From Paraburkholderia aromaticivorans (GTDB lineage Bacteria > Pseudomonadota > Gammaproteobacteria > Burkholderiales > Burkholderiaceae): 64,000 nt of DNA. The number at the start of each line of letters is the position of its first letter. The first letter of the stretch is position 1. Of this stretch, positions 1 to 26,575 are shown piece by piece. Below the pieces are notes generated by a model. The model saw only the letters and a program-made list of their open reading frames with translations. It was not told the origin of the DNA and made no database searches. A program made the position numbers and the translations under genes. The DNA is taken from positions 558,001 through 622,000 of the forward strand of contig NZ_CP051514.1 of the NCBI RefSeq assembly GCF_012689525.1. The letters run 5' to 3'.

Positions 1-407
1 CGGCGATTGCTCTGCCTGGAGCCGACCAGTGAGCAATCGACAAGACGGTCAACCTTGCGGAAGTAGGCCTGGGTCGCCAGACGGTGCCTTGCATGGAGCG
101 AGGCGATATTCGACTTTGAAAGGCAATCCTTAACAACCTCGACATTCATGCCAAAATGAATCTGCAGCGCGTCGGCAGCATCCGCCCGGTGAAAACACGC
201 CACCTGATCGAACAGCGTCTCGCCATCTCCGTCGATCAGATCAATCCAGACCTCACCGTCTTCGATCGCCTTTCCCGACGGATGAATCACCCGTTCGTCC
301 TCATTGGCGGCAGCGAGCAACCGGTGGCCGTCGACATCATCAACCGGCATTTCGAAAACCTCGACCAGTTCGCCGCTTACCGCGACCTGCATGACCAGTA
401 ACGCCAT
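1..407 (-). CDS. Hypothetical protein, 3' end cut by window edge
   Basis: An open reading frame runs leftwards from an ATG at 405-407 to the window edge without a stop, giving at least 135 residues. An AAGGAG ribosome binding site sits five bases before the start, which fixes it. The protein begins MALLVMQVAVSGELVEVFEM and is rich in Asp, Glu and Val, with no signal peptide or membrane segment visible. I do not recognise the family. The start, ribosome site and even codon use support a real cytoplasmic protein; the function is unknown. Confidence 0.7.
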   Translation of the reverse strand, partial: MALLVMQVAVSGELVEVFEMPVDDVDGHRLLAAANEDERVIHPSGKAIEDGEVWIDLIDGDGETLFDQVACFHRADAADALQIHFGMNVEVVKDCLSKSNIASLHARHRLATQAYFRKVDRLVDCSLVGSRQSNR

Positions 408-788
408 CTTTGCTCCTTGTGTTGCGATTGACGGGAATAGCGTTGTGCCGATCAGGCGACCAGATCCCGTGATCCGGTTGAGTGACGTTCTGGTGGGCGC
501 GAGCTCTGGCACCCTTGAGGCGCTCGTTGCGACGCTGTGCGAAACAATACGATTGGTGCGGGTGTGGCAGGCATCGTGTGTCGTGAGGCGCATCATACGG
601 CGGACATTCTGCGCGCCAATCTGTGACGACACCAGGAGTCGTCAAAGCGGTGTCGCCTGAATGACACCTGTCCATCCGGACGGAGGTGCTATGGCTGTGT
701 ATCGTTGCGATCAGACCGGTACTGCACCAACGGCCAGTCGATTCCCGACGCCGTCCATCCTGCCGCTACCACGAAGGATGAGTGTCGA
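408..788. other. Non-coding stretch
   Basis: No reading frame with a ribosome site and protein-like composition is visible on either strand. It holds the upstream region of the leftward gene starting at 407. I see no convincing promoter, repeat or RNA. Confidence 0.5.
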
Positions 789-1019
789 CTAACCGCGACT
801 GTCGACCCAGTCACGTGCCCAGGTCGTAGCGCGTCCCAGGGCCTGCGTTTCGTTATCGAAATAGTCGAGCGCGTGGAACTTGTAGGAGACCGGATCTGCG
901 TCAAGGGCGTCACCCCTTACCAGCATAAGGTTGGCGGCAAACCAGCCGTCCGGTAACCGATGCGCAGAGGGGGAGACTGAATAACCGTTGTAATGGTGAA
1001 GATGTTTATTATTTTGCAT
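789..1019 (-). CDS. Small conserved-looking hypothetical protein
   Basis: A 76-residue frame starting MQNNKHLHHYNGYSVSPSAH. It has a polar, soluble composition with aromatic and His-rich patches, a Pro-Asp-Gly turn and a C-terminal Trp-Ala-Arg-Asp-Trp stretch. It resembles small proteins of unknown function common in Burkholderia, but that is recall, not a search. The ribosome site is weak. It stands alone between two intergenic gaps. No function is proposed. Confidence 0.6.
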   Translation of the reverse strand: MQNNKHLHHYNGYSVSPSAHRLPDGWFAANLMLVRGDALDADPVSYKFHALDYFDNETQALGRATTWARDWVDSRG

Positions 1020-1185
1020 AAGCGATAACCGGGCGCCACCCGCACGACATTCATGCCGTACAAGCGTAATAAATAGAAAATGGGGCGAGACAGATCGTGT
1101 CGAAAAGACAAATGATGCGCACGTTGAACTCGGCGATCAGATCGGGAGCGCATGGCTCCGCGAGGATACTAGTCAGGCAAACATG

Positions 1186-1206
1186 CAAAGGGCCGGTAAA
1201 CCGACC
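1186..1206 (-). terminator. Probable intrinsic terminator of the cold-shock gene
   Basis: Read on the minus strand, GGTCGG-TTTA-CCGGCC forms a six-pair hairpin followed by CTTTGC, just past the stop of the cold-shock gene. A matching hairpin follows the truncated cold-shock copy near 7831, which supports a conserved role. Confidence 0.45.
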
Positions 1207-1217
1207 CCAGGGATACG

Positions 1218-1421
1218 TTACAGCGGCGAGATATTCGCGGCCTGCATACCCTTCGGGCCGCGCTTTGTCTCGTAGCTCACCTTCTGGTTTTCTGTGAGCG
1301 TCTTGAACCCATCGCCACGCACTTCCGAGAAGTGAGCGAAAAGATCGTCGCCGCCAGCGTCAGGAGTAATGAAGCCAAAGTCTTTGCTATCGTTGAACCA
1401 CTTGACAGTACCGGTATCCAT
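1218..1421 (-). CDS. cspA: Cold-shock protein (CspA family)
   Basis: A 67-residue single cold-shock domain, the family's usual length, beginning [17 protein letters not shown]. Such proteins bind single-stranded RNA and DNA through an OB fold and act as RNA chaperones. The RNP1 motif is present but its usual KGFGFI reads KDFGFI, so the conserved Gly is Asp (codon GAC). RNP2 corresponds to DLFAHFSEV. The start follows AAGGAATTC. A long leader with a possible promoter lies upstream, as is usual for csp genes. The frame is open for another 143 codons upstream, but those residues are not protein-like, so the short start is chosen. A 5'-truncated copy lies at 7676 and a leader-only copy at 12473. 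Confidence 0.93.
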
Positions 1422-1561
1422 GAGAATTCCTTGAGATAAAATAATAGCCCCGTTGCGGAGCGACAAAAACTTCAAGGAAGAGGAGAGGATAACGAGTACC
1501 GCACAGAACAGGCGGCAAGTGGTGATCAGCAATCGGGCTTCTTGAATATTCCGAAGGTCAC

Positions 1562-1588
1562 GGTATAGCGACCGAGCAATAATGTCAA
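1562..1588 (-). promoter_or_regulatory. Possible promoter of the cold-shock gene
   Basis: On the minus strand TTGACA (1583-1588) is followed after 15 bases by TATACC (1562-1567), leaving a leader of about 140 bases before the cspA start. Long structured leaders are typical of cold-shock genes. The spacer is shorter than ideal. A diverged copy of this segment at 12473 keeps TTGACA. Confidence 0.4.
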
Positions 1589-1621
1589 CGCTTTTCGCGC
1601 TTCGCCCTGCCAAGGCAGCCG

Positions 1622-1804
1622 GGAGAGATTCAGCCCGTGGTTCCCAGAATGACAGACGGGCGCCCTGTCGGACGCGCGGAGGAATACTGGCTTCGCGCGC
1701 TGGAGCAGCATCTGCGGGAGTGGGCTCACGTGCCCTGGGCAGGATGGGCGTCCTGAAGCGCGGGCCGACGAATACTGGCACCGGACGCAACTTTGAGGCG
1801 CAAT
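1622..1804 (+). pseudogene. DUF2934 protein remnant
   Basis: In one frame the segment reads [20 protein letters not shown] and continues to a stop. In the next frame it resumes as [15 protein letters not shown]. These are the two tandem repeats (D-G-R-P-x-x-R-A-x-E-Y-W) of DUF2934 proteins, and an intact relative lies at 7168-7608. A small indel after the Trp of the second repeat breaks the frame, and the N-terminal half is unrecognisable. It is a decayed second copy. Confidence 0.7.
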
Positions 1805-1911
1805 GATCGCCGCGAGTCCCTTGACCTGACCCGCGGCGATCACTATCCATCTTCAGAAGCGTGAGCTATTTCCCTCCGTTCACTTTGCAATCGCAAGAGG
1901 GCCGTCCGACG

Positions 1912-2475
1912 CTAGCCAATATCGATCGTGCGGCTGGCAGATCGCGAGGGCTCATATTTGGGTACGGTCAATGTAAGCACGCCCTTGTCAAACTTTGCGA
2001 GAGCATGGTCGGGGTCGGCGTTTTCAGGCATCGGGATCGTGCGCGTGAAGGCCCCGTATGCGCGTTCCAGACGATAGCAGCCGTCCTCCTCACTGTGCAC
2101 GTCCTGCCTTTTCTCGCCGCGCAGCACCAGTGCTCCGTCCTCGACGCCGATGGTCAGATCCTCCCTCTCCATGCCTGGCAGCTCGACGGTTACGCGGAGT
2201 ATCGTCCCCTCGTCCACCACGTCGATGCGCGGCTGGAAACGCGATGAGCTGAAGTCGCCGAACCATCGTTCGAGCGTGCCGCGCACTGCGAACGGATCGA
2301 GAAAAAAATCCTCCATCGCACGCAGGGAATCACGCGAGAAAAGTCGCTGGATGTCGGGCCACGTGGCATGCCCCTGCTCGCTAGCTGCCTGACTCTCCGG
2401 GCTGTTCGTGTCGGAATTGCCCACTGTGCGGCGAAGAAATTTGAAAGGGTTCCACTTTCTCAGGTCGTTGTTCAT
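1912..2475 (-). CDS. Hsp20/alpha-crystallin small heat-shock protein (operon copy 1, gene 3)
   Basis: A 187-residue protein. The N-terminal arm (about 1-85) begins MNNDLRKWNPFKFLRR. The alpha-crystallin domain (about 85-180) includes VTVELPGMEREDLTIGVEDG and the C-terminal strand motif GVLTLTVPK. ATP-independent holdases of this family bind unfolding proteins as oligomers in the cytoplasm. The chosen ATG (2473-2475) has GAGGTGG upstream; the frame is open for 19 more codons without support. It is last in a minus-strand run of three Hsp20 genes and is probably transcribed with them from the heat-shock promoter near 3700. The paralogue at 27432-27994 is frameshifted, so this is the intact copy. 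Confidence 0.92.
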   Translation of the reverse strand: MNNDLRKWNPFKFLRRTVGNSDTNSPESQAASEQGHATWPDIQRLFSRDSLRAMEDFFLDPFAVRGTLERWFGDFSSSRFQPRIDVVDEGTILRVTVELPGMEREDLTIGVEDGALVLRGEKRQDVHSEEDGCYRLERAYGAFTRTIPMPENADPDHALAKFDKGVLTLTVPKYEPSRSASRTIDIG

Positions 2476-2680
2476 CGTATCCACCTCGAAGGTCTGACAG
2501 GAAACTGGATCTCCCTCTGCGTCACAGTGCAAAGCTTCTGCTTACGTGGCTGGACCGCGACTCGCGAGGGGCCACCATTTTTCCATTACGTTCTGCATCC
2601 GCGCCTCTATAACGCAGGTGATGGCGACCTCGCGGCCGCCACCGCTTTTTTCTCCTGTCGTCGTTGCTGATCGTCCGGGC

Positions 2681-3088
2681 TCAGCCTGTCTGCACCTCGA
2701 TGCGTCGCGGCCTTGCTTCGTCGCGGCGCGGAACGGTCAGTTTCAGCACGCCGTCCTGCAGGTTCGCGTCGATCTTCGACGTGTCGAAGTCCGGGCTCAG
2801 CGCAAACGCACGCGCGAATCGCGGTTCACGGATCTCGGCGTGCTGCAGCCGCAGACTGGCGGGTGTCGGCACGACCGCTTCGGCCTCGATATACAAATTG
2901 CCGTCGTGCACTTTCACCTCGAGCTTGTCTTTCGTGACGCCCGGCAGGTCCGCCCACAGCGTGATGCCGTGGCTGTCCTCGAATACGTCGACTGCGGGTG
3001 TGAGCGTCATCCGCCGCGCTGGCTGGTCCCCCTCGCGTCGTGCTGCCGGTTGCTGGTCGCGTTCAGCAACCTGTGTCCTGTCGTTCAT
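2681..3088 (-). CDS. Hsp20/alpha-crystallin small heat-shock protein (operon copy 1, gene 2)
   Basis: A 135-residue protein with a short charged N-terminal arm (MNDRTQVAERDQQPAARREG) and an alpha-crystallin domain from about residue 30, including ADLPGVTKDKLEVKVHDGNL and DGVLKLTVPRR. It is a cytoplasmic holdase by family. It starts 24 bases after the stop of the upstream Hsp20 gene, so co-transcription is likely. The paralogue at 26576-26983 is nearly identical and in the matching position. The downstream gap (2476-2680) contains remains of a small gene intact in the other copy: AGGAG and a GTG start are kept, but the frame stops after about ten codons. Confidence 0.92.
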   Translation of the reverse strand: MNDRTQVAERDQQPAARREGDQPARRMTLTPAVDVFEDSHGITLWADLPGVTKDKLEVKVHDGNLYIEAEAVVPTPASLRLQHAEIREPRFARAFALSPDFDTSKIDANLQDGVLKLTVPRRDEARPRRIEVQTG

Positions 3089-3112
3089 GGCTTGCTCCTC
3101 GAATAAGTGGCG

Positions 3113-3568
3113 TTACTGGACGGTGATGGCCCGCGGCTTCGACGCTTCGCGCTTGCCGACGGTAATCGACAGGCAGCCGTTGGTGTAGCGCGCCTGTACC
3201 TTGTCGGGATCGGCATTCTGCGGCAGTTCGATCACGCGGCGAAACGCACCGCTGAAGCGCTCCTGCGCGTAGGTGCGAACGTCGTCGCGGATTTCACCAC
3301 TGGCGTCCGGGCGCGCCGGCTTGCGCTCGCCCGCAATCGTTAACAACCCCTTGTCAATCGAAACGTCGAGTCCAGCGGCGCTCAGGCCCGGCGCGAACGC
3401 GACAATCTCGATCGAGTCGTCGGTCGCTCCGATGTTGACGTACGGGAAGTTAGCGCCGGAGCGGCCGGAGCGGATGCTGGACGGGAAGCCGCTGAATAGG
3501 GTCGCCATTTCGCGTTGCAGACGGTCAAATTCACTGAGCGGGCTGGTTCTCGAATAAAAGTCACTCAT
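3113..3568 (-). CDS. Hsp20/alpha-crystallin small heat-shock protein (operon copy 1, gene 1)
   Basis: A 151-residue small heat-shock protein, the first gene of the minus-strand operon. The start (MSDFYSRTSPLSEFDRLQRE) is fixed by GGAGG nine bases upstream. The alpha-crystallin domain runs from about residue 45 to the end, with IEIVAFAPGLSAAGLDVSID, a charged loop of Asp/Arg residues, ERFSGAFRRVIELPQNADP and the C-terminal strand GCLSITVGKRE. A longer open frame upstream is not protein-like. A sigma32-type promoter lies about 130 bases upstream. The paralogue at 26084-26551 is very similar. Confidence 0.93.
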   Translation of the reverse strand: MSDFYSRTSPLSEFDRLQREMATLFSGFPSSIRSGRSGANFPYVNIGATDDSIEIVAFAPGLSAAGLDVSIDKGLLTIAGERKPARPDASGEIRDDVRTYAQERFSGAFRRVIELPQNADPDKVQARYTNGCLSITVGKREASKPRAITVQ

Positions 3569-3698
3569 GGTCGTATCCTCCTCGAAAGGGGCATGGAGGC
3601 GAACGGGCTTACGCGCTCCAGTCCGCCTGCCAGCTGCTGGCAAACAAATCGAAACACGCAGCGCGCCTGATGCCACAAGCGCGTCTGCCTGAGCGAAA

Positions 3699-3733
3699 TC
3701 CAAGATAGGCATCCCGGAGGAAATTTCAAGGGG
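3699..3733 (-). promoter_or_regulatory. Sigma32-type heat-shock promoter for Hsp20 operon copy 1
   Basis: On the minus strand CCTTGAAA (-35) is followed by CCTATCTTGG (-10) after about 14 bases, close to the heat-shock consensus CTTGAAA / CCCCATNT. The same pair, with the same -10, precedes the paralogous operon at 25918. Confidence 0.65.
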
Positions 3734-3743
3734 GAAATTTGGG

Positions 3744-3774
3744 TCTTGAAAACCGCATGCCGGCTCCCCATTGT
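3744..3774 (+). promoter_or_regulatory. Sigma32-type heat-shock promoter, divergent
   Basis: CTTGAA (3745-3750) and CCCCATT (3766-3772) are separated by 15 bases, an excellent match to the sigma32 consensus, about 35 bases before the rightward gene at 3809. It is back to back with the Hsp20 promoter at 3699-3733. Confidence 0.7.
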
Positions 3775-3808
3775 CGCGAGGCATGGCAACGACCAACTGG
3801 AGGACATC

Positions 3809-4252
3809 ATGGAATTTAATTCTGACTGGCTCACGCTGGGAAGGCACCGTGTGCGGCTGCGCTCGACCGAAGGCTTTCCGACTGAAACAATGCGCAGCGT
3901 CGCGGAGGTCGTGAGGCTCGCAATCGATAACAACATGAGTGCGCGCGCGCGGCTGGTCGAGATCGTCTTCCAGCAGAACCAGACCTACGATATCGCCGTC
4001 GGCACGACCGTGGTGGAAGACAGCGTCTGTGCGCCGCAACTCGAAGCGGCGATGTCGGTGGTGCTTGGCCTGCCGACGGAACAGGTGAACGTCACCGTGA
4101 CGACGGTCAACCAGGAGGAAGTCGACCTGCACTTCGGCGTCTATGAGCGCATGCTCGCCGAGAAGCTGGGCGTTGTGCCGCCCATCCAGTGGTTGTCGGG
4201 CTATTGCGCTGCACCGCAACGGCGGCCCCGGATCAGTCAGTGCGTCGAATAA
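3809..4252 (+). CDS. Uncharacterised heat-shock-linked protein, C-terminally extended
   Basis: A 147-residue protein starting MEFNSDWLTLGRHRVRLRST behind GGAGG. The first 127 residues match the gene at 25455-25838 almost throughout, so the family is real, but I do not recognise it. It is soluble and acidic, with a repeated Val/Thr strand pattern (NVTVTTVNQEEVDLHFGVYE) and no membrane segment. It diverges from an Hsp20 operon and has its own sigma32-type promoter, so a role in the heat-shock response is inferred. After PPIQ the paralogue stops (TGA). Here the codon reads TGG and about 20 junk-like residues follow, a stop-loss extension. Confidence 0.8.
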   Translation: MEFNSDWLTLGRHRVRLRSTEGFPTETMRSVAEVVRLAIDNNMSARARLVEIVFQQNQTYDIAVGTTVVEDSVCAPQLEAAMSVVLGLPTEQVNVTVTTVNQEEVDLHFGVYERMLAEKLGVVPPIQWLSGYCAAPQRRPRISQCVE

Positions 4253-4292
4253 GCCACGGATCAACTCCATCGCGTCAGACAGGAGCAGCATC

Positions 4293-4573
4293 ATGCAAAA
4301 ACGCTCACACGCACTGCTGGCGTCGGCTGTTCTGGCCGCGGGCTCGGCGGCTGCGGCGGCCGCTGAGCCCCCCTGAAAACTCTGCCGTCGCGACAGGACA
4401 TCGGGATCACGTGCACGATCCAGCGGGGGCCGGACCGAACACGCCGGGGCGACTATACGTTGCTCCGGCTGGAGCGTCCGTCAACCTCGCCCTGTATCGG
4501 CAAGATCGTGACCGATATCGTGCCCGGCAAAGCCGGCGTGCAGGGGCGTGAATTCTCCGGTGTTACAACGTGA
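4293..4573 (+). pseudogene. Secreted protein gene, frameshifted copy 1
   Basis: The start MQKRSHALLASAVLAAGSAA behind AGGAG is a signal peptide like that of the intact paralogue at 24990-25367. The frame then hits TGA after a run of six C (4369-4374). One base further along, the frame resumes as PLKTLPSRQDIGITCTIQRG and GDYTLLRLERPSTSPC, parallel to the paralogue, to a stop at 4571-4573, short of the paralogue's C-terminal CPDSGIRF segment. So it carries a one-base loss in a C run plus a shortened end. It follows the gene at 3809 as the paralogue follows its partner. Confidence 0.75.
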
Positions 4574-5028
4574 GTTACGTGATTCGAGCCGACAGCTTCG
4601 CGGACCGCGAGACGGCCGTTCGGGCCGTCGCGAAATCGACGTTGGGCGTGTGATGTACTATCAACGCCCCGCACATAACCTTCTACCGTAGTGAGAAAAA
4701 CCTGCATGGGCACCGGCTTCTGAAGGCAGGCATTCCAGGCGGTGCCCCCTGCGGTAGCCTCATTTCCCGGGGGGGGAGCCGACGTATGGACGAGAATGGG
4801 CACCTGTGCCAGGTTCGGCTGCGTGCGCAGACGGCGACAGAGTTCGGCGCCGCCCATCACGGGCATCATCCAGTCCGTGATGACCAGGTCAGGTACGCGT
4901 TGTCGCATCAATTCCAGTGCCTCCGCACCGTTGGCGGCGCAACGCACTTCATACCCCTCTGCGTGCAGTATCAGATGCCACGCCGCAAGCAGGTCGGGCT
5001 CGTCGTCGACAAGCAGGATTGAACACAT
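4453..5028 (-). CDS. Response regulator, receiver domain with unusual C-terminal tail
   Basis: Residues 1-120 form a CheY-like receiver domain: acidic pocket Asp8-Asp9, phospho-acceptor Asp52 in LVITDWMMP, Thr82 and Lys104 in CLQKPVP. There is no recognisable output domain. The final roughly 70 residues are low in hydrophobics and overlap the decayed secreted-protein gene on the other strand, so the natural end may have been lost. It is divergent from the histidine kinase at 5295 with about 270 bases between, so the two probably form a pair acting by phosphotransfer. Confidence 0.85.
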   Translation of the reverse strand: MCSILLVDDEPDLLAAWHLILHAEGYEVRCAANGAEALELMRQRVPDLVITDWMMPVMGGAELCRRLRTQPNLAQVPILVHTSAPPPGNEATAGGTAWNACLQKPVPMQVFLTTVEGYVRGVDSTSHAQRRFRDGPNGRLAVREAVGSNHVTHVVTPENSRPCTPALPGTISVTILPIQGEVDGRSSRSNV

Positions 5029-5294
5029 GAAAATCTTGCCCCAGCTTACGCGCTCGGTGCCCCGCGACCGATAAGCAAGGCGTGTTCCATCGACGCGATT
5101 GAATGATAATCACATGTGCGGCGGTACAGGCCAGTACATCAGGTCGCCACTGCGACGGCACGGATTCGCGGGTTTCTCCTTTGCCGCGTCAAATTCGGGG
5201 CCGTCCTCCTATTGCGCGGTTTGGGAGAGCCCCGGCGGGTGCTGTATCACCACGCGCCCGCTATGTTGAAACACTTACCTGCGGACACGAAATT

Positions 5295-6524
5295 ATGACT
5301 GACACACAAACAGCGCCGCTTCGCAGTTTTGCCGGGTTTCTGCGTCGGGAACGGACCACGCTGACCGAAAAATGGATGAATGCCGTGTCCGGCGACGCGG
5401 GCCTGGTCGAGGCCGACAAGCTGACGTACGATCAACTCGCTGATCATTTGCCGGAAATCCTGGACGGGATCTGTAGTGCGCTCGACGCGCAGGATCTTGA
5501 ACAGGCAGAGCCGGCGATCGAACGCGACGCCCGCACGCATGGAATGGTTCGCTGGCAACAGGGCTATCGCATCGATGAACTCGTTCACGAGCTGGATCTG
5601 TTCCGGCACGTGCTGGCGGATGCGGCCGAGACGTTCGCCGAATCGGATGACGCGTTCACGAGGCGCCACGAACGGCGTGCCGGGCGGCTGATCGATGAAG
5701 CGCTCGGCTTCGTCACCGTCACGTCGATCCGGGAAGTGGTCACGGAGCGCGACCGGAAAATTGATGGATACACCGGCAGTCTGGAGCGGGCAAACCTCGA
5801 ACTGACATTGAAGCAGCGGTTGGTGAGCGACCTTTACGAATCGCGCATGCAGATTACCCGCAGTGTGGCACACGACCTGCGTAACTTCCTGAACGCATTC
5901 TCCATCGCGCTGCAGCTGATTTCACGCGCGCCATCGAAAGCGGAAGCCGGACTGGCGATGGCCACCCGGCAAGCCGCGGACATGAAGCAGCTGGTGGACG
6001 ACATGGTCGAGTACTCGGTGGTGCTGGGCGACAGCACCCCGCTTGCGGTCGAGCCATTCGACCTGCGCGAACTCTTTGACGAGCTGGTCGGGGCCTGCCG
6101 GCCCGCTATCGTGGCCAAAGGCTTACGTCTGTCTACCTGCTTCGACGCGGACATGCCAACGGTGCTGTCGAACCGCATCAAGGTGAAGCAGGTGGCGCTA
6201 AACCTGCTGTCGAACGCGACAAAGTACACGAAAGCCGGTGAAATCGAACTGGCGATGGGCCGCCACGGCGAAGGAGCCTGGTATCTGCGCGTTGCCGACA
6301 CCGGGGTGGGCATTGCGCCGTCGGACAGAGACCGCGTGTTCGATGAATTTGAACGGGCTGCGGCCGACGATATACCGGGCGTCGGCCTTGGTCTGGCGAT
6401 CGTCAAGGAACTTTGTCGGGTCCTTGAAGGCAAGATCCGCTTTGATACACGCGAAGGGCTCGGCACGACCTTTGAGATCCGCTTCTCCTTCCGGCACAGT
6501 GCCTCCCTGGATTCGCGCCACTGA
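5295..6524 (+). CDS. Sensor histidine kinase with RsbRD-like N-terminal domain
   Basis: A 409-residue kinase without membrane segments. Residues 1-150 resemble the RsbRD_N sensor domain (four-helix, globin-like), a coiled-coil linker follows, then HisKA with phospho-acceptor His193 in SVAHDLRNFLNAF. The ATPase domain has N box NLLSNATKYT, G1 VADTGVGI, F box FDEFERA and G2 VGLGLAIVKELC. It would autophosphorylate and pass phosphate to a receiver, most simply the divergent regulator at 4453-5028. The ATG at 5295 begins the conserved domain; an upstream open stretch of 64 codons is not protein-like. Regulation is not evident. Confidence 0.9.
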   Translation: MTDTQTAPLRSFAGFLRRERTTLTEKWMNAVSGDAGLVEADKLTYDQLADHLPEILDGICSALDAQDLEQAEPAIERDARTHGMVRWQQGYRIDELVHELDLFRHVLADAAETFAESDDAFTRRHERRAGRLIDEALGFVTVTSIREVVTERDRKIDGYTGSLERANLELTLKQRLVSDLYESRMQITRSVAHDLRNFLNAFSIALQLISRAPSKAEAGLAMATRQAADMKQLVDDMVEYSVVLGDSTPLAVEPFDLRELFDELVGACRPAIVAKGLRLSTCFDADMPTVLSNRIKVKQVALNLLSNATKYTKAGEIELAMGRHGEGAWYLRVADTGVGIAPSDRDRVFDEFERAAADDIPGVGLGLAIVKELCRVLEGKIRFDTREGLGTTFEIRFSFRHSASLDSRH

Positions 6525-7151
6525 ACGTCCGGGGATCGGTTCGATATGCATCCGGAACCAACCAGACGCGAACCACAGCGTCCCCTCGAAAGCGCGTATC
6601 TACAACTTCCAGGACGCTCGGTGCCTTCGGGGTCACGCTGCGTCCTCGGGCAGCCAGCAGCGGTCTTGCGGCGCATCTGCAACGCATTCCGCGCCGCTGG
6701 TAGCCGTACGGTTGCTTCATGTCGAATTTACAGCAACGCGCGACTAATCAGTGCTCAGATTGCGTTCGCTTGATTCCTGTTAATGACCGCGTGATTCCGC
6801 CACCAGGCAGTTTTTCTCCAGTCAAGCCAGATTTTTGGGATAGCTGTCTTCCGAGATGCATCACTGCACGCGTTCGGATTCGCGAACGGGCACGGCGTTT
6901 CTTAATTGCATCGATCAAGCATGGAAATTGCGCAATAACGCCTGCGGCGAAAAGCTGGAAGGACTTCGTCACGGCGTACTGCAAAGGCCCTTGGTGCGGT
7001 GTGCGTATCAGCCCGAGCGGCGCCAGAGCATTCGCGTGACAGGCGGATCGCGCCGGGCGGTTTTGCCTCTGCCAGGCCGGGCAGGCCGGTGTTCAACTAT
7101 AGAGTCGAGCCACCACCCCTACATCAAACGCACAACACCAGGAAGACAGTC
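6525..7151. other. Non-coding stretch
   Basis: No gene with supporting signals is seen. A moderately AT-richer patch around 6740-6850 could hold a promoter. The right end supplies the ribosome site AGGAAGAC for the ATG at 7152. Confidence 0.45.
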
Positions 7152-7167
7152 ATGACTGAGCGATTGG

Positions 7168-7608
7168 TTGACATTAATAGATCGTAGCGGCGCAGTGCTG
7201 CACACGTATCCGATTACGCTGAGCGGATCGGGCAATGCCTCCGACGATTCCGCCTATCAGGCCAAGGCCCTGGAAGCGGCAGCGCACGGCCGGCTTGTGC
7301 CGGACGCTGAACTCGGCACCCTGACAGCCAGGATGCGCACGGCTCGGGGCGGTCAAATGGCGCCCTACGGCGACGACCTTGAGAAAAATTCGGAAACGAA
7401 GCCGGGGTTGGACCAGGCTGTCCGCGAACGCGCTTACCTGCTCTGGGAGAAAGATGGACGCCCCGATGGGCGCGCGGAGGAGTACTGGCATCGGGCTCTC
7501 GACCAGCATCTTCGGGAGCGGGCCTACGTTCTGTGGCAGCAGGAAGGAAGTCCCGAAGGGCGACAGGGTGAATACTGGCGTCGGCTTGTCGATTTCCAGG
7601 CGGATTGA
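7168..7608 (+). CDS. DUF2934 domain protein, start region possibly frameshifted
   Basis: A 146-residue frame. Residues 1-65 hold a conserved-looking segment (LHTYPITLSGSGNASDDSAY), and residues 80-146 hold two DUF2934 repeats (ERAYLLWEKDGRPDGRAEEY and ERAYVLWQQEGSPEGRQGEY). The role of DUF2934 proteins is not known. Translation probably began at ATG 7152, which has a good AGGAAGAC ribosome site and reads MTERLVDINRS before a stop. One base of slippage near 7170-7185 would join it to the long frame. A TTG at 7168 without a ribosome site is the only in-frame alternative. Either it is a frameshifted gene or an assembly error. Confidence 0.65.
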   Translation: MTLIDRSGAVLHTYPITLSGSGNASDDSAYQAKALEAAAHGRLVPDAELGTLTARMRTARGGQMAPYGDDLEKNSETKPGLDQAVRERAYLLWEKDGRPDGRAEEYWHRALDQHLRERAYVLWQQEGSPEGRQGEYWRRLVDFQAD

Positions 7609-7675
7609 TTCCTGGCGGCCCGGGAATGTCGAGGGCGTTCAACGATAGCAAACGGCCTTGGCTTCCCGCTGCTCC

Positions 7676-7819
7676 TGGCGCTGGCGCAACGATCTCTTCG
7701 CTCATTTCTCGGAAGTTTGGGGCGACGGCTTTAAGACGCTCGCAGAGAACCAGAAGGCGAGCTACGAGACAAAGCGCGGCCCGAAGGGTTTGCGGGCCGC
7801 GAACATTTCGCCGCCGTAA
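7676..7819 (+). pseudogene. Cold-shock gene, 5'-truncated copy
   Basis: The last 43 codons of a CspA-type gene remain: [20 protein letters not shown], then KRGPKGLRAANISPP and a TAA stop at 7817-7819. It parallels residues 26-67 of the protein at 1218-1421. The first strand and the RNP1 motif are missing. It lies just after the DUF2934 gene; near the intact cspA a DUF2934 remnant is also close. Confidence 0.8.
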
Positions 7820-7830
7820 CGTATCTCAAG

Positions 7831-7852
7831 GGCCGGTCTGCCGGCCTTTGCT
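7831..7852 (+). terminator. Intrinsic terminator after truncated cold-shock copy
   Basis: GGCCGG-TCTG-CCGGCC is a perfect six-pair hairpin followed by TTTGCTT, 11 bases past the stop. It is homologous to the hairpin after the intact cold-shock gene. Confidence 0.5.
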
Positions 7853-7914
7853 TGACTAGCATCCTCGCGGAGCCACGCGCTTCCGGTCTGATCGCGGCGT
7901 TTCCCCCGGATGCG

Positions 7915-7995
7915 GCTGAAACCGGATACCGGAATCCGGACAGACGACGCGCTCCTGACGGCAACCCGCTTCCCCGGATAGGGAAGCAGACGCAA
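7915..7995 (-). pseudogene. Third, fragmentary copy of the secreted-protein gene
   Basis: On the minus strand, residues such as PYPGKRVAVR and, one base out of frame, VVCPDSGIRFQPHPG match the C-terminus of the secreted protein at 24990-25367 (PYLGQRVAVRGRVICPDSGI). Nothing upstream matches, so only about the last 30 codons are left. Confidence 0.6.
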
Positions 7996-8098
7996 TGCGG
8001 TTGGACGTCAGGCCCAGGCGAAGCACCACTGCAGTTCTCGCAGCACATGACCGCCGTGCATGCAACTCCGGCGTTGCGCGCAATGGCGATCAATCCCG

Positions 8099-10483
8099 TC
8101 AACCCTTGTCCGTGCGCGGGGTGCTACCCGACTGCAGTGCAACACGCAACTGGTCAAGCGTATAGGGCTTGCGCAGCGCCGACCAGTTGAAGGGGAATTG
8201 CTCGTGGTCGGGGATTGCGTTTCCAGAAGCGAAGATAATCTGGAGCTCTGGACGAATGGCAAATGCGCGCTGTGCGAGTTCTATGCCTGACATGTCGGGC
8301 ATGACGACGTCTGTGAACAGTATGTCGAAGTCGTGGGCTTCGATCGCGTTTAAAGCCGCCGCTGCGTTTTCAGCGCGCTGCGGGCTTATCCCGATCAGCA
8401 TGAGAAGCTCACACACTGCGTTTAGCGACGCGGCGTCGTCTTCAACGACAAGCATGCGCAAGCTCTCCGGGTGCCAGACAGACCCGGCGCCATCATCTGG
8501 GTGCGTACCAGCCGCACCGGCCTCGATCGCGTCGGTGTCGCTGTTTCCCAGCACGTGCCGCACCTTGAAGGCGAGCTGCTGACGACTGTATGGCTTGCTC
8601 AGCAGTTCCACGCCGGGATCCAGCCGGCCACCATGCACGATCGCGTTCTGTGTATAGCCCGACGTGAAAAGCACTTTCAGCCCCGGCAGAATCTCGACCG
8701 CTCTTCGAGCCATCTCCGGGCTGCGCAGCGCTCCCGGCATCACCACGTCCGTAAACAGCAGATCGATATGTACGCCACTCGCAATGACGGTCAACGCCTG
8801 CTCCGCATCGTTGGCCTTGAGCACCGCATAGCCGAGACCGGTAAGAAGTTCGACGACAGTCGATTGAACCTTCAAATCGTCCTCGACGACCAGGATAGTT
8901 TCGTTGCCGTGTTTCAGGGTGCCCTGTGTGCGCGCCTCTGTTTCCACCGCCGTGCCGGTTGAGCGGGGCAGATAGATCCTGACGGTCGTCCCCTCGCCGA
9001 CTTCGCTGTAGAGCCGGATGTGGCCGCCACTCTGCTTGACGAAACCGTAGGCCATGCTCAGCCCGAGGCCGGTGCCGTGACCGTCCGCCTTGGTGCTGAA
9101 GAACGGATCGAAAGCGCGCTCCATCACCTCCTGGGTCATACCGGTTCCGGTGTCCGTCACGGCCAGCATCACGTACTGTCCGGCGGAGACGTCATCGAGT
9201 GACGATACGTAGTCGTCATCAAGCGTCGCATTGGCGAGTTCAAGAGTGAGCTTGCCGCCATCCGGCATTGCGTCGCGCGCATTGATCGCCAGATTCAGGA
9301 TCACATTTTCCAGCTGATGCGGATCCACAGCGGTGTTCCACAGGCCGCCCGCAACCACGGACTCAATCTCGATCGTCTCACCCAACGCCCGTCGCAGCAG
9401 GTCGTCGAGAGCCTGAAGCAGACGCGAAGGTTTGATGACGACGGGTGCCAGCGGTTGCTGGCGTCCGAAAGCAAGCAGCTGAGAGGCGAGCTTCGCACCC
9501 CGGTCGACGGCGTCGATAGCGTTACCCAGGCGCTCGGCGCTCCAGCCGTCGCGGCCATGCCTGCTTTCAAGCAGTTCCAGATTGCCCCGTAGCACCTGCA
9601 GCACGTTGTTGAAATCATTCGCCACCCCGCCCGTGAGTTTTCCCAATGCTTCCATTTTCTGCGACTGGAACAGCGCCCTTTGGGTTTGCTCAAGCAACTC
9701 GCCTGCGCGCCGGCGCTCGGTGATATCGCGTGTGACTTTTGCAAATCCGACCAGCTTGCCGTCTTCGTGGATGGCGTCGATGACAACGTGCGCCCAGAAA
9801 GGGCTTCCATCGCGCCTCACGCGCCACCCCTCCGCTTCAAAGCGTCCCTCGCGCCTCGCTGTCTCCAGGCCCCGGAAGGGGACGCCGGCCGCCACATCCT
9901 CCGGCGTGTAAAACCGGGAAAAATGCGAGCCGATAATCTCGCTTTCGGTGTACCCCTTGATCCGGCGCGCCCCGGAGTTCCAGCTTGTAATGTGCCCATC
10001 GGGCGTCAGCATGAAGATGGCATAGTCGGTCACGCCCTGAACCAGGAGGCGGAAGCTTCGTTCGCTCCTGAGCACCGCGTCGTGAGCGGCCCTCCTGTCG
10101 CTGACGTCCTGAACCACCTTCCCGAAGCCGATAAGCTGGCCCTGGCTGTCGCGCAGGGCCGTCATTACGACATTTGCCCAGAACGTTGTCCCGTCCTTGC
10201 GCACGCGCCAGCCCTCCACGACGTAACGCCCCGAATCGGCTGCGGCCCGGAGCGCCACCTCGGGCGCGCCGGAGGCGCGCTCCGCTTCCGGATAGAAGAC
10301 AGAGAACGGCTGGCCTACAATCTCCCCGGACCGGTAGCCCTGGATGCGTTCACCGCCCGGGTTCCACGTCAGCACGACGCCTTGCGGCGAGAGGGCGCAG
10401 ATTGAGTAATCCTGGGTCGATTCGGCCCATAGCCGGAGCCAGACAGCACTGAACTCGCCGGGGTCAGGGTTAGCGTGGTTCAT
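8099..10483 (-). CDS. Hybrid histidine kinase-like protein (PAS-PAS-HisKA-HATPase-REC-REC) lacking the phospho-His
   Basis: A 794-residue soluble protein. Two PAS domains (about 15-145 and 150-275; YSICALSPQGVVLTWNPGGE, YAIFMLTPDGHITSWNSGAR) are followed by a HisKA-type dimerisation region. There the expected GGVAHDFNN reads GGVANDFNN: residue 289 is Asn (codon 9617-9619, AAT). The ATPase domain looks intact (NLAINARDAMPDGG, VTDTGTGM, GTGLGLSMAYGFVKQSGG). Two receiver domains follow, with FTDVVMPGALRSPEM and FTDVVMPDMSG. As read, it cannot autophosphorylate in the usual way. It may act as a phosphatase, a scaffold or a dimer partner of another kinase. The ATG at 10481-10483 begins the conserved part. 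Confidence 0.9.
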   Translation of the reverse strand: MNHANPDPGEFSAVWLRLWAESTQDYSICALSPQGVVLTWNPGGERIQGYRSGEIVGQPFSVFYPEAERASGAPEVALRAAADSGRYVVEGWRVRKDGTTFWANVVMTALRDSQGQLIGFGKVVQDVSDRRAAHDAVLRSERSFRLLVQGVTDYAIFMLTPDGHITSWNSGARRIKGYTESEIIGSHFSRFYTPEDVAAGVPFRGLETARREGRFEAEGWRVRRDGSPFWAHVVIDAIHEDGKLVGFAKVTRDITERRRAGELLEQTQRALFQSQKMEALGKLTGGVANDFNNVLQVLRGNLELLESRHGRDGWSAERLGNAIDAVDRGAKLASQLLAFGRQQPLAPVVIKPSRLLQALDDLLRRALGETIEIESVVAGGLWNTAVDPHQLENVILNLAINARDAMPDGGKLTLELANATLDDDYVSSLDDVSAGQYVMLAVTDTGTGMTQEVMERAFDPFFSTKADGHGTGLGLSMAYGFVKQSGGHIRLYSEVGEGTTVRIYLPRSTGTAVETEARTQGTLKHGNETILVVEDDLKVQSTVVELLTGLGYAVLKANDAEQALTVIASGVHIDLLFTDVVMPGALRSPEMARRAVEILPGLKVLFTSGYTQNAIVHGGRLDPGVELLSKPYSRQQLAFKVRHVLGNSDTDAIEAGAAGTHPDDGAGSVWHPESLRMLVVEDDAASLNAVCELLMLIGISPQRAENAAAALNAIEAHDFDILFTDVVMPDMSGIELAQRAFAIRPELQIIFASGNAIPDHEQFPFNWSALRKPYTLDQLRVALQSGSTPRTDKG

Positions 10484-10674
10484 CTGATCAAGGTTTGTTA
10501 GCGCCAGTCTGGTCGACGCGCCGGGATTGAAACGAGTCACAGGTCGCAGCAATTGCCGGGCCCGAACGGGTCCGGCGGCGGCGCAGACATGGCGATCGGA
10601 CTTGCGCCGGATCGGGTACGATAATCCGGTCCGGGCCGCCTGCCTCCAATCGGTACCTTATCTTCGGAGTAGTC

Positions 10675-11805
10675 ATGCGCCTCGCGCAATTCATCTCAAA
10701 CGAAATGGAAGCGATCGTCGCGGAATGGGAAAGCTTCGCCGCCACGTTGCTGCCCGTGGCGAACGATATGTCGTCTCTGGAACTGCGCGACCATGCCCGC
10801 CAGATCCTCGAGGCGGTCGCCAGGGACCTGTCAACGCCACAGACGAGACAGGCGCAGGTCGACAAATCGAGGGGTCTTGCGCCCGCAGCCGGGCCGCGGG
10901 AAACGGCTGCACAGACTCATGCCGTGCTGCGCGCCCGGCGCGGCTTCGATATCAACCAGCTGTGCGCGGAGTACCGCGCGTTGCGCGCTACCGTGCTGCG
11001 GCTGTGGCTGGAAAACGGCAGGGTGCAACCGCTTGAACTGGACGACGTCATCCGGTTTAACGAAGCGATCGATCAGGCGCTTACCGAGTCGGTAAACTTC
11101 TTCAGCAGTCAGGTTGAGCGGTCGCGCAATCTTCTCCTGGGCATGCTCGGGCATGACATGCGCAGCCCCCTGCAGACCATCCAGATGACTGCACATCATC
11201 TCGGGAAACTTAACAATGGCGAGGACGTTTCCGCCGCCGCGGCCCGCCTGATCAGGAGCGGCAACCGGATGCAGGCACTGCTCGATGACATGGTGGACTT
11301 CAGCCGCACAAAGCTCGGGCTCGGTATCCGGGTGGCGCCGACTCCGGTCGATGTTGCAGCCCTGGTCGACGACGAACTGGACCAGCTACGGGCGGCGCAC
11401 GGAACGCAGACCGTGGAACTTGAAGTGACAGGCGAAACCGCGGCACTTTGGGACGGCCGGCGCGTCCAGCAGATGCTCGGCAACCTGGTGGGAAATGCGA
11501 TCAGGTATGGGGAGCCAACGGCCGCCGTGCAGGTGGCTGTCAGCGGAGGGGACCGGGAGATATCCATCGAGGTGAGGAATCGGGGACCCGCAATACCGCC
11601 GTCCGCCCTTTATCGCATCTTCGAACCGCTTGAACGCGGTCCGGACGCGCAAAATCGGACCGGCTCGAAGGACGGCCTCGGTCTGGGACTCTACATCGCG
11701 CGGGAGATCGCGCGCGCTCACGGCGGCGAAATACAGGCACACTCCGACGACACCGAGACCGTATTTACGGTTCGGCTCCCTCGCACGTGCTGTCCGCCTG
11801 ACTGA
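10675..11805 (+). CDS. Sensor histidine kinase with RsbRD-like N-terminal domain
   Basis: A 376-residue soluble kinase, start behind GGAG. Residues 1-145 resemble RsbRD_N. Then comes HisKA with His160 in LGHDMRSPLQTIQM, and an ATPase domain with NLVGNAIRYGE, VRNRGPAIPP and GLGLGLYIAREIARAHGG. The G1 box has Asn-Arg-Gly in place of the usual Asp-x-Gly, a substitution seen in some kinases of this type. It is divergent from the hybrid kinase-like protein at 8099-10483, which carries two receivers, so phosphate could flow from His160 to those receivers. Confidence 0.9.
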   Translation: MRLAQFISNEMEAIVAEWESFAATLLPVANDMSSLELRDHARQILEAVARDLSTPQTRQAQVDKSRGLAPAAGPRETAAQTHAVLRARRGFDINQLCAEYRALRATVLRLWLENGRVQPLELDDVIRFNEAIDQALTESVNFFSSQVERSRNLLLGMLGHDMRSPLQTIQMTAHHLGKLNNGEDVSAAAARLIRSGNRMQALLDDMVDFSRTKLGLGIRVAPTPVDVAALVDDELDQLRAAHGTQTVELEVTGETAALWDGRRVQQMLGNLVGNAIRYGEPTAAVQVAVSGGDREISIEVRNRGPAIPPSALYRIFEPLERGPDAQNRTGSKDGLGLGLYIAREIARAHGGEIQAHSDDTETVFTVRLPRTCCPPD

Positions 11806-11960
11806 GCATGCGGAATTATGGACCCCTGGCGCGCGAACCCGCTTACGTGAAACTCGCGGGCCGGGACGCAATCGCGAGCTGCCGCATAGTCAAATGACGC
11901 CGACGTGCGGCTGGTCCTGCCAACTCCATTGTTTTGGGCGACTGCGGGCTGGGGTGAGCG

Positions 11961-12134
11961 CTAATCGTCCTGGTGGTCAAGGTCTTTGCTTGATGAATTA
12001 GACCCCTCCGTGTCAGGTTCCGCTGTCTGATCCTTGCCGGAGGCGGTTGTAGAGACGTCGAGCTGGTCCAACGCCTCGTCAATTTTTCTGTTGTCGCCGC
12101 CGTCCAGCGCCCGTTGGACGTCCTCGCCTGACAT
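11961..12134 (-). CDS. Small acidic protein
   Basis: A 57-residue frame starting MSGEDVQRALDGGDNRKIDE, with GAGGA before the ATG. It is very rich in Asp, Ser and Glu, without Cys or Trp, and likely soluble or disordered. A start 17 codons upstream is possible but has no ribosome site. I do not recognise it. Composition and ribosome site support expression; confidence is moderate because it is short and isolated. Confidence 0.5.
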   Translation of the reverse strand: MSGEDVQRALDGGDNRKIDEALDQLDVSTTASGKDQTAEPDTEGSNSSSKDLDHQDD

Positions 12135-12472
12135 ACATTCCTCGGATGACTTATTGTCTTTCCGGTCCGTAGAGGATGAGGGCACTTCCGGTGTCGCGCT
12201 GCTGGTCGTTGACTGTGCCAGTTCGTTCTCCGAATGCGTCGATTCGCGCCTTGTGAGGGCACCCTTGTAGCCACCTGCAAGTTAGGCGCATTCGCTGTGC
12301 CTGGCGCTGGCAGCCCCCTGTCCCAAGTGTCAAATCTGGCAATGGACAAACGCATCGCCAGGTCGCTGTTTCGTCGTCTTTTCCGGTTTGCATCCCCCAA
12401 CGCGTTAATCGTCTCTGACGCTCGCTACGCAATCATCGAAATGGAACTAGGCTCTTTCCCCTGCTTCACGAC

Positions 12473-15690: not shown

Positions 15691-15999
15691 TCACACAGAC
15701 TTGAGAATGACCTTCCGAACGGTACCACCTAGCCACGCGGTGATCCCCGAACGGCTGGCAATAACGATAGTCCGGCGAGGTCCGAGGACGATCGCGCCGA
15801 CGCACAACGCCAGCAGCAGCGTGACGCGTGGTGTGTCGGCCAGCGAAGCGATCAGGCCGACCGCAGGAGACCGCCTCTGTCCGCGTACGGCCGGGACCGA
15901 TGGTGGAGCGCTATTCGCCGCTAGCAACGCTGTGCGTGATTCTGCCATGCGCAGCAGGATGGCGGTCTCGGCTTCCCTATTGGTGGCTGCGCGGGTCAT
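15691..15999 (-). CDS. YqjK-like small membrane-associated protein
   Basis: A 102-residue protein starting MTRAATNREAETAILLRMAE. The N-terminal charged segment with repeated Arg/Glu resembles YqjK-type proteins, and a hydrophobic stretch (VTLLLALCVGAIVLG) gives one membrane span. Its ATG overlaps the stop of the preceding gene in an ATGA, so translation is probably coupled. Position after yqjD- and yqjE-like genes matches the E. coli order. The function of the family is unknown, linked to envelope and stationary-phase physiology. Confidence 0.7.
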   Translation of the reverse strand: MTRAATNREAETAILLRMAESRTALLAANSAPPSVPAVRGQRRSPAVGLIASLADTPRVTLLLALCVGAIVLGPRRTIVIASRSGITAWLGGTVRKVILKSV

Positions 16000-16370
16000 T
16001 TTAGCGCCTCCTTCAACGTGTCCAGATCGCTCCGGAGTTCCCCCTGCAGAAGATGAAGCGAACGTCCCGGTTTCTGGGCACGGACGAAGAGCAGGGAGAC
16101 AACGGAAACCACCAGCCACAACGCAGCTACGCCCCAGACCACAGGAAGGAAGTAAGGCGTCCGCCACGCCGTGGCGATGATCGCAATGCACGCAAACGAA
16201 AGCGTGAACAGGGCAGCGACGGCCAGGGCAACAAGTGCACTCAACTCGCGGACCAGACATTTTTTGGTCTCCTCAAGTTCGACGCCGAGGAGCTCACCAT
16301 AATCGGTGGCTCGCTCGACGCAGAATCTGCCGACGTTTCGCCACGTCGTGACTTTCGAACGCATGGACAT
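15996..16370 (-). CDS. YqjE-like phage-holin-family membrane protein
   Basis: A 124-residue protein with an N-terminal amphipathic helix (GELLGVELEETKKCLVRELS) and two membrane helices (about 43-70 and 78-100), the pattern of the PF07332 'putative actinobacterial holin-X / YqjE' family. It is not a phage lysis gene: it sits second in a yqjD-yqjE-yqjK-like operon. The stop overlaps the next start by four bases. Confidence 0.8.
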   Translation of the reverse strand: MSMRSKVTTWRNVGRFCVERATDYGELLGVELEETKKCLVRELSALVALAVAALFTLSFACIAIIATAWRTPYFLPVVWGVAALWLVVSVVSLLFVRAQKPGRSLHLLQGELRSDLDTLKEALK

Positions 16371-16474
16371 TGTGGGACTCCCTGGGGCTGGCTTGTTGCG
16401 GAAACGCCGTGCCGGCCCGCCAGGTGTTTGCCGTACACCTTTCAGGTCTCGTCGAAGGCAGGACGCGAGTAGCC

Positions 16475-16771
16475 TTACTCCCGATCTCTCCAGTCGCTTC
16501 GGCCGTTATCGGACCTTGAGCGATTTGCTGTGCGCAACGCCCCAAGGATGAAGCCCAGACCAGCAGCAATTGCCAGCGCCGCGAACGGCCGCTCCAGCGT
16601 AGACTCGCGCACGACGTCCGCAAAATCGGCATAAAGTTGCTGCGCTTTGCCACTCAACTCTTTCGCTGTTCCGCTCACTTGCGCGCCGGCACTGTCCAGC
16701 AGGTCCCCGGCGGCTTGCTTAACGTCGCCAGCAGCCTCCCGTAGCGTTCCTTCTGCTTTCGTCGTTTCCAT
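16475..16771 (-). CDS. DUF883 family protein (YqjD/ElaB-like)
   Basis: A 98-residue protein, start behind GAGGAG. A long amphipathic helix rich in Ala, Gln and Gly (TLREAAGDVKQAAGDLLDSA) is followed by a C-terminal membrane helix with Gly repeats (FAALAIAAGLGFILGALRT), the hallmark of DUF883. In E. coli the relatives YqjD and ElaB are C-tail-anchored inner-membrane proteins that bind ribosomes in stationary phase and are under RpoS control. It is first gene of the operon with the YqjE- and YqjK-like genes; the gap to the next is 104 bases. Confidence 0.85.
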   Translation of the reverse strand: METTKAEGTLREAAGDVKQAAGDLLDSAGAQVSGTAKELSGKAQQLYADFADVVRESTLERPFAALAIAAGLGFILGALRTANRSRSDNGRSDWRDRE

Positions 16772-17391
16772 TGTCTGCTCCTCAAGTGAGTGCGATCAGG
16801 CCGCACGGGAAAAATGCGCCGGCATGCAAGTCGAGAACCACGCCTCTGTGCAAAGTGCTGGCTCGGCAGCGAGACGGCGTGCCAGAAGTTGCGCAAAAGT
16901 TGGGCCCAACCGCTAATTCGTTGACGCACGCACTTGCAGGGGCGGCGCTCTCTGAAGTGACTTTCCATCGCGATTCTGGCGGGAGCAACAAAAATGCTGG
17001 TCCCGTTGTTCAGCGGACCTAACATGGAAGCACCGCCACTGCAAAGCGCGTAGCGCGGGCTGCCTCGCGCAGTCGCATCGGGGTGCAATTTTCAGATGGA
17101 GGCGACGTTCCGGGTGAAGACATGCTCAAGTGAGCGGTCTTGTTTCGACCCACGCCCGCGTGCCGCACTCCAAATTTATTCGAGCCAGTGAGGGGTCAGA
17201 ACATGGGCGGGCGTTCGCTCTGGTCAAGATGCCTGGCTTTATCCGGCCGCGGCAATTGCCTGCCACATCAATGAGGATTCGGCAGCGCCCGTCCGCCTTC
17301 ATGGAACAAACCTTCGGCGTGTCAGCAGCGATTTGTCGAGTTAACGCCCATGCGCGCCGATGGATGCATGCACCCGACGATGGAGACGAAA
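16772..17391. other. Non-coding stretch
   Basis: Upstream region of the DUF883 operon on the left and of the small secreted protein at 17392 on the right. Frames in between are not protein-like, and I see no repeat or RNA signature. Confidence 0.45.
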
Positions 17392-17730
17392 ATGGAAGTC
17401 CTCTTCAAACGCTTCGTAGCTGCAGCGCTGCTATCGACCTTCGCGGCGACCGGGTCTGCACAGAATTCAGGTGCGACCCGCGAGGCTGGAGGTAGCGGTC
17501 CCGGGGCTGCCCGCCCCGGGGCGGGGATGCCTGGCGCTAGCGTCGCGGAGGCGCCTCAGGGTGGCGATCGCCCCCGCACGCCTGGCGCGGTTCGCGCGCC
17601 CCATTCTGCGTCGGCAGCCTCCGGACAACGCGAGCCGGCGCCTGATAACCGAGGTGCGAGCATGCCGACTGGTCAAGGGGTGACGCGCGGCGGACCTGAG
17701 AATCCGAGCGGACTGAAGAAGCCCGATTGA
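17392..17730 (+). CDS. Small secreted proline/glycine-rich protein
   Basis: A 112-residue protein. The ATG at 17392 has GGAG seven bases upstream and opens a signal peptide (MEVLFKRFVAAALLSTFAAT, cleavage near GSAQ). The mature part of about 88 residues is rich in Gly, Pro, Ala and Arg, without Cys, and looks disordered. It is likely periplasmic or exported. I do not recognise a family. Upstream in-frame Met codons exist but lack a ribosome site and would spoil the signal peptide. Confidence 0.65.
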   Translation: MEVLFKRFVAAALLSTFAATGSAQNSGATREAGGSGPGAARPGAGMPGASVAEAPQGGDRPRTPGAVRAPHSASAASGQREPAPDNRGASMPTGQGVTRGGPENPSGLKKPD

Positions 17731-17947
17731 CTCGCCAGCGTGTACAGGTACGCCTCGGCGCCCCGATCGCGAAGCGATTGACGCGCAGCACGCAGTCCAG
17801 GAGGAGATGAAAAACGGGCCAGTGGACGCCGCAAACCATGCGCGCAAGGTTGCCGGTTGGAAGGGCACCCCGTCGACTAGACCATAGGCTGCGTCCTTCT
17901 AACCGCGCCAGGGTGAGGCCGAACACTGCCGGACAGGAAGCGCAGCA

Positions 17948-24989: not shown

Positions 24990-25367
24990 TCAGTAGACCG
25001 GAAACACGAAGTCCGGCGTCGGTGTAAACCGGATTCCGGAATCCGGACAGATCACGCGTCCCCGGACGGCGACCCGCTGTCCCAGATAAGGTTGCAGGAG
25101 CAGCGGGTCTGCTCCGCCGGTCTTCCCCAGCAGGATGTCGGTCACGACCCGGTCGTTGCAGGGTGAGGTCACCGGCCGGTCCAGCAGAAGGGTGGTGTAG
25201 TCACCCGGCGCGTATTGCCCGTTGCCTTGCTGGATCGTGCCGCTGATCCAGATGTCCTGCTGCAGCGGCAATGTTTTCAGGGGTGACTCTGCGGCGCCCG
25301 CAGTGGCGGGCAGTGAGCCCACGACGAAGACGGCTGACGCCAGCAGTGCAGGCGCGCGTTTTTTCAT
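24990..25367 (-). CDS. Small secreted protein, heat-shock-module copy 2
   Basis: A 125-residue exported protein: signal peptide MKKRAPALLASAVFVVGSLP (cleavage near AGAAES), mature part of about 100 residues with a conserved Cys pair (TSPCNDRVV and VICPDSG) and beta-rich sequence such as GDYTTLLLDRPV. GGGAGC precedes the ATG. It follows the partner gene 25455-25838 by 87 bases, probably in one operon from the sigma32-type promoter. A frameshifted copy lies at 4293 and a fragment at 7915. The family is not recognised; a periplasmic stress role is inferred. Confidence 0.75.
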   Translation of the reverse strand: MKKRAPALLASAVFVVGSLPATAGAAESPLKTLPLQQDIWISGTIQQGNGQYAPGDYTTLLLDRPVTSPCNDRVVTDILLGKTGGADPLLLQPYLGQRVAVRGRVICPDSGIRFTPTPDFVFPVY

Positions 25368-25454
25368 GTTGCTGCTCCCATCTGGCTTGACGGTATGGAT
25401 CCCGGGCGCGGCTTGGGAAGTGCTGCGGGCGGCTGCCGTCGCGGCGCAGCGCAA

Positions 25455-25838: not shown

Positions 25839-25869
25839 GGTGTCCTCCGCTTGCCGTTGCCATGCACCG

Positions 25870-25902
25870 CGATAATAGGATTTGGCAGGCGATTTTCAAG
25901 GC
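25870..25902 (-). promoter_or_regulatory. Sigma32-type promoter for the partner gene
   Basis: On the minus strand CCTTGAAAA (-35) and CCTATTATC (-10) are about 14 bases apart, 30 bases from the start at 25838. It is back to back with the Hsp20 promoter. Confidence 0.6.
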
Positions 25903-25917
25903 GGAATTTCACCACCA

Positions 25918-25952
25918 CCCCTTGAAATTTTCACTGTAGGGCCTATCTTGGA
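25918..25952 (+). promoter_or_regulatory. Sigma32-type promoter for Hsp20 operon copy 2
   Basis: CCCCTTGAAA (-35) and CCTATCTTGG (-10), 15 bases apart; the -10 is identical to that of operon copy 1. Confidence 0.65.
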
Positions 25953-26551: not shown

Positions 26552-26575
26552 CGCCAGTCATTCAAGGAGCGAGCC

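Follow-up and report, generated by a model that had tools for sequence, protein, structure and literature searches.

One member of a pair of 97% identical hybrid kinases encoded in a single genome lacks the phosphoacceptor histidine. We consider it probable that this protein, called copy A here and encoded in one block of a duplicated stress-sensor island, lost the residue through a recent, lineage-specific change. Most probably, the duplicate is drifting into a passive or inhibitory function and does not belong to a newly split signalling pair. The window analysed here is a stretch of 64,000 nucleotides (C1:558001-622000) from a genome of 10.84 Mb in 4 contigs.

The copy A gene occupies 8099..10483 on the (-) strand, where it forms an open frame of 794 aa. 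Its product contains two PAS stretches, at residues 27-127 (10103..10405, (-); Pfam PAS) and residues 155-256 (9716..10021, (-); Pfam PAS_9), followed by a HisKA-like DHp region at residues 280-343 (9455..9646, (-)) and an HATPase_c domain at residues 387-507 (8963..9325, (-); Pfam, 74.6 bits). Pfam recognizes two receiver stretches after these: the first receiver covers residues 527-648 (8540..8905, (-)) as delimited by a match to 28tm_A, and the second covers residues 678-762 (8198..8452, (-); Pfam Response_reg). The CA-domain boxes NLAINARDA, DTGTGM, FDPFFSTK and GTGLGL, which we take to be the N, G1, F and G2 boxes, are all kept in the translation, and both receivers contain, by eye, FTDVVMP and KPY, giving them the Asp and Lys of a hybrid kinase. 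Pfam and the translation thus agree with the first-pass annotation of this DNA, which had described two PAS domains, two receivers and the ATPase boxes as intact.

The H-box of copy A reads GGVANDFNN and places Asn289, encoded by AAT at 9617..9619 (-), at the site of the phosphoacceptor His that characterizes active HisKA kinases. This assignment, also made in the first-pass annotation, stands in the open frame. The H+1 residue is an acid and H+4 is Asn293 (ANDFNN), matching the Asn or Thr found at H+4 in HisKA phosphatases. The HisKA region scores 18.3 bits against a Pfam cut-off of 26.9 bits; this shortfall is not decisive, because several His-bearing homologues also lack HisKA in precomputed Pfam lists.

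Aligning the H-box of homologues, a check proposed with the original observation, isolates copy A. A homologue search scored 7,992 candidates, and among the 121 proteins formed by copy A and the best 120 of these, 120 have His and copy A alone has Asn. In full-length alignment the paralogue is 97% identical to copy A and the other 119 listed proteins are 75-87% identical; the paralogue and the orthologues, which carry Paraburkholderia, Caballeronia and Ralstonia names, share the PAS-PAS-HisKA-HATPase-REC-REC arrangement. His is also encoded at all 29 orthologue loci fetched from other same-genus genomes, by CAC in 24 and CAT in 5. Across 144 same-genus genomes, 68 of which (this one included) contain hybrid-kinase matches, the pattern GG-x-A-[HN]-DFNN occurs at 381 sites, 380 with His and one, that in the window, with Asn. 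With one site in 381, Asn is rejected as the marker of a clade within the genus.

The His-bearing paralogue, copy B, lies ~470 kb away on the same contig (1037293-1039674, (+)). Both genes belong to a ~17.4-kb inverted duplication of 96% DNA identity (C1:552871-570311 versus 1052690-1035466), which aligns in two segments, C1:552871-561708 versus 1052690-1043842 (96.2%) and C1:562082-570311 versus 1043690-1035466 (96.4%). The part inside the window spans 1..12311 (no strand assigned) and is aligned except at 3709-4081. The location of the Asn codon in a repeat of such high identity, together with its uniqueness in everything searched, would fit a sequencing or assembly error. We nevertheless judge an error improbable. 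The paralogue codon is CAC, so AAT differs from it at two bases within one codon and not at one, as had been supposed from a comparison with CAT; a further obstacle is that 66 positions distinguish copies A and B across the hybrid kinase gene. The two-base difference and these distinguishing positions make a simple collapse of the copies unlikely. Elsewhere in the window, positions 15702-17788 and 25026-27996 show further, older similarity (75-85%) to DNA near the second copy, which suggests that the stress island was duplicated repeatedly.

The two blocks decay reciprocally, HK1 and the response regulator being kept in block A and the hybrid kinase His in block B. The genes for the response regulator (4453..5028, (-)), the RsbRD_N-HisKA-HATPase kinase HK1 (5103..6524, (+)) and a HAD protein are all open in block A, whereas in block B the regulator is split over three frames, two of its three pieces containing stops, HK1 shifts frame near residue 252 and has a stop, and the HAD gene has 2 stops. 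The small ORF orf147 is broken in block B as well, and only 78 residues of the 393-residue Hsp20-like ORF of block A find a match there. The abhydrolase, the oxidoreductase, one Hsp20 (202/206 residues), the DUF2934 protein (7168..7608, (+), open in both blocks), the second kinase HK2 and the hybrid kinase align between blocks free of stops. Neither copy of the hybrid kinase has a stop or frameshift.

Polarizing the A-B changes with nine outgroup loci assigns 12 nonsynonymous and 18 synonymous changes to each branch, with 4 synonymous changes unassigned. Pairwise dN/dS is 0.18 (dS 0.074), which together with the equal branch counts indicates purifying selection on both copies over most of their divergence. 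Faster decay of copy A than of copy B is unsupported by these counts. The synonymous differences are unevenly placed, with 6 in codons 1-329 and 34 in codons 330-794 (Fisher p = 0.0004, for a boundary picked post hoc); nonsynonymous differences, 5 and 19, are divided in the same way (p = 0.73). The tract holding codon 289 is thus the less diverged of the two, through gene conversion or by chance, which suggests, and does not prove, that the His was lost recently.

Four of the 24 A-B differences (0.167) fall in columns conserved at 95% or more, on a profile weighted by the many Ralstonia among the named proteins. The mean fraction was 0.022 in a control of 100 non-independent pairs of similar identity, A-B among them, and 2 of the 100, again counting A-B, reach 0.167. 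In a set of 17 disjoint control pairs, A-B ranks highest by count (4/24) and second by fraction (another pair has 3/15). Residues 160 and 289 of copy A are private in columns that are otherwise invariant; such a pair of private residues is unexceptional, since at least two occur in 19 of the 121 proteins. Pro228 of copy A aligns with Arg in 116 of 119 other proteins and with His in 3. Copy B has changes of its own at well conserved sites, for example 45, 372, 431, 571 and 626. The excess of A-B differences at conserved columns over the control mean argues for relaxed constraint on a redundant duplicate as the likeliest cause of the change, rather than selection for a new role, and neutral drift is the simplest way in which copy A could have lost its His.

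We think it unlikely that selection has made the Asn copy a regulator, one that shifts the balance between kinase and phosphatase activities in the manner of pseudo-histidine kinases, by pairing with its His twin or by binding the same receivers as the twin; we are similarly doubtful that it is a newly made His-less subunit that heterodimerizes with the twin and sets this balance. The open frame, the kept ATPase boxes and receivers, and the low dN/dS with equal counts on both branches are all consistent with selection, although purifying selection could have acted before the Asn arose. In the data searched, the Asn is confined to a single copy in a single genome. There are precedents: DivL works without kinase activity (PMC4211667), the pseudokinase ChrS raised heme tolerance by way of its paralogue's kinase (PMC9491836), and in EnvZ heterodimers an ATP-site mutant is complemented by the H243A variant (PMC4734776). 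Against these, PMC9491836 reports no significant heterodimerization of truncated ChrS in two-hybrid tests, and MtrB autophosphorylates in cis without trans complementation (PMC5956149). The conservation of an Asn-type family unrelated to the window gene, described below, also speaks for a selected regulator.

Lacking the His, copy A should be incapable of autophosphorylation on the DHp helix; with the ATPase boxes, the H+1 acid, the H+4 Asn and both receivers retained, its sequence predicts a protein that is autokinase-dead but may still act as a phosphatase and pair with the His twin. If expressed, copy A would form homodimers as well as heterodimers with the His copy. Its net effect would probably be mild, through dephosphorylation or titration of shared receivers and partners; alternatively, it may lend its ATPase domain in trans within the heterodimer. 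For CrdS, PMC3510030 reports that kinase activity is undetectable in the H371A variant and that the half-life of CrdA~P, 53.5 min alone, falls to 2.6 min with CrdS-H371A and 0.7 min with the wild type, N375 (H+4) being essential for the phosphatase activity. Copy A is likely to act as a weak phosphatase or a titrating subunit. Retention of phosphatase activity is not certain, because PleC-H610A, as recounted in PMC3510030, lost both activities.

Next to copy A lies HK2 (10675..11805, (+)), an RsbRD_N-HisKA-HATPase kinase with His160. As the first-pass annotation had it, this is an opposite-strand kinase about 190 bases away: the intergenic region between the divergent genes (10484..10674, no strand assigned) is 191 bases long, and His160 is encoded by CAT at 11152 within GHDMRSPL. 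That annotation went on to propose a split signalling unit in which copy A has lost autophosphorylation and HK2 phosphorylates its receivers. The loss itself would be expected from the behaviour of CrdS-H371A (PMC3510030); the takeover by the neighbour is not supported, since HK2 also accompanies hybrids that have their His, and it is on this ground that HK2 is rejected as a replacement for the lost function. HK2 is duplicated together with the hybrid kinase, its copy beside the His-bearing paralogue being 99% identical, and the intergenic regions differ at 6 of 191 positions.

A divergent HK2 homologue also adjoins His-bearing hybrids at 4 of 29 orthologue loci inspected with 1.5-kb flanks (L026, L028, L034 and, in pieces, L029). 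At L029 the homologue at 211-1316 matches only in several pieces and may be broken. At two further loci (L031 and L032) the HK2 homologue is more distant and differently placed, L043 has fragments, and the remaining 22 of the 29 have no HK2 homologue within 1.5 kb. On wider stretches of the L026 and L028 genomes the pair is free of stops, with HK2 at 85% and 73% identity. Because HK2 adjoins the His-bearing paralogue and orthologues too, its pairing with the hybrid kinase is older than the Asn. A divergently oriented neighbour with His160 and HATPase_c, retained beside the hybrid in a few relatives (in two of them as seen on wider stretches), is what a split unit would call for, but its presence next to His-bearing hybrids and its absence within 1.5 kb at those 22 loci lead us to regard phosphorylation of the copy A receivers by HK2 as very improbable. 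The 97% identical His copy ~470 kb away is a more obvious partner than HK2.

Among solved structures, copy A is closest to CckA-type transmitters: its DHp and CA sequence (residues 272-506) best matches chain 5idj_A, named as a histidine kinase, and then 5idm_A, from CckA. Copy A differs from these transmitters in lacking the His, and its scores against the NCBIfam CckA models (361 and 298 bits) fall well short of the cut-offs of 1000 bits. It resembles DivL in having the His of the transmitter replaced while the other kinase boxes are kept; however, DivL has a Tyr that is conserved in DivL orthologues apart from one Ala (PMC4211667), whereas the Asn here is found in one copy in one genome, the other 120 of the 121 aligned proteins and all 29 loci having His. 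ChrS of Corynebacterium glutamicum is, as copy A is predicted to be, the kinase-dead member of a paralogous pair and acts through its partner, but according to PMC9491836 it was inactivated by a frameshift in the CA domain during laboratory evolution and did not lose its His. The available parts of PMC11481889 and PMC11784639 contain nothing bearing on Asn at the phosphoacceptor site.

Asn at this site does recur elsewhere. A scan of a genome contig collection for the Asn motif, which covered that motif only and gives no frequency across bacteria, found 62 stretches. Of these, 38 fit a transmitter profile made from the family of the window protein, and the 24 that did not were dropped; 12 passed a stricter text test for two boxes. 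Seven stretches (L078, L087, L089, L091, L095, L110 and L126) have a similar H-box and are 44-90% identical to one another, five of them bearing Riflebacteria or Rifleibacterium titles. Because these seven had been picked for having Asn, we searched for homologues with the L126 protein. Asn occurs in every one of its 19 nearest homologues (P0122-P0140, 92% to 35% identity), within ANDFNN in 18 and within SNDFNN in P0136; by pattern search, the other 101 listed homologues comprise 92 with His and 9 without the motif. The H-box Asn, D695xGxG, F709xPF, RGLGL and the receiver residues D833 and K883 are invariant in the 19. Since only 10 of the 19 show a complete GxGLG pattern in the G2 box, it is uncertain whether all of them bind ATP.

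The Asn-type genes of L126 (2951-5665, (-)), L095 (571-3321, (-)) and L089 (4025-5956, (+)) share, by eye, two adjoining gene types, one whose product starts with or contains MLMKKADIRKGDILIINTGYH and the other GVF[SA]D[IV]KLW. Like copy A, these proteins combine PAS, HisKA-like, HATPase_c and receiver domains with Asn at the phosphoacceptor site. They differ from it in forming a conserved family with the H-box NDFNN[LI]LTGIMGY, where copy A reads NDFNNVLQVLRGN, and the window gene is absent among the listed homologues of the L126 protein. Judged by these comparisons, Asn-type hybrid kinases form a conserved family around Riflebacteria; the window gene is unrelated and does not belong to it. 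A literature search on histidine kinases of Riflebacteria listed a single paper, which concerns LuxR solos. Asn H-box transmitters with similar H-boxes also occur as pairs or triples under Rokubacteria titles (L074, L085, L123), in Desulfobulbus (L080, L121), in Desulfobacteria or Desulfobacterales (L105, L112) and in Lentisphaerae or Verrucomicrobia (L106, L107), hinting at further small Asn lineages.

The Riflebacteria family shows that evolution can hold an Asn in the phosphoacceptor position for long, with a receiver and most of an ATP site kept beside it; this raises the question of what role such a protein has without the His. If copy A were a selected regulator after all, it would be a very young case of the conversion that is fixed in this family. 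The window and its duplicate provide a matched natural pair in one cell, His-bearing and His-less hybrid kinases that are 97% identical, with which to ask how a duplicated kinase turns inert or inhibitory. Should the Asn copy work, the pair may capture an early step in the birth of a pseudokinase.
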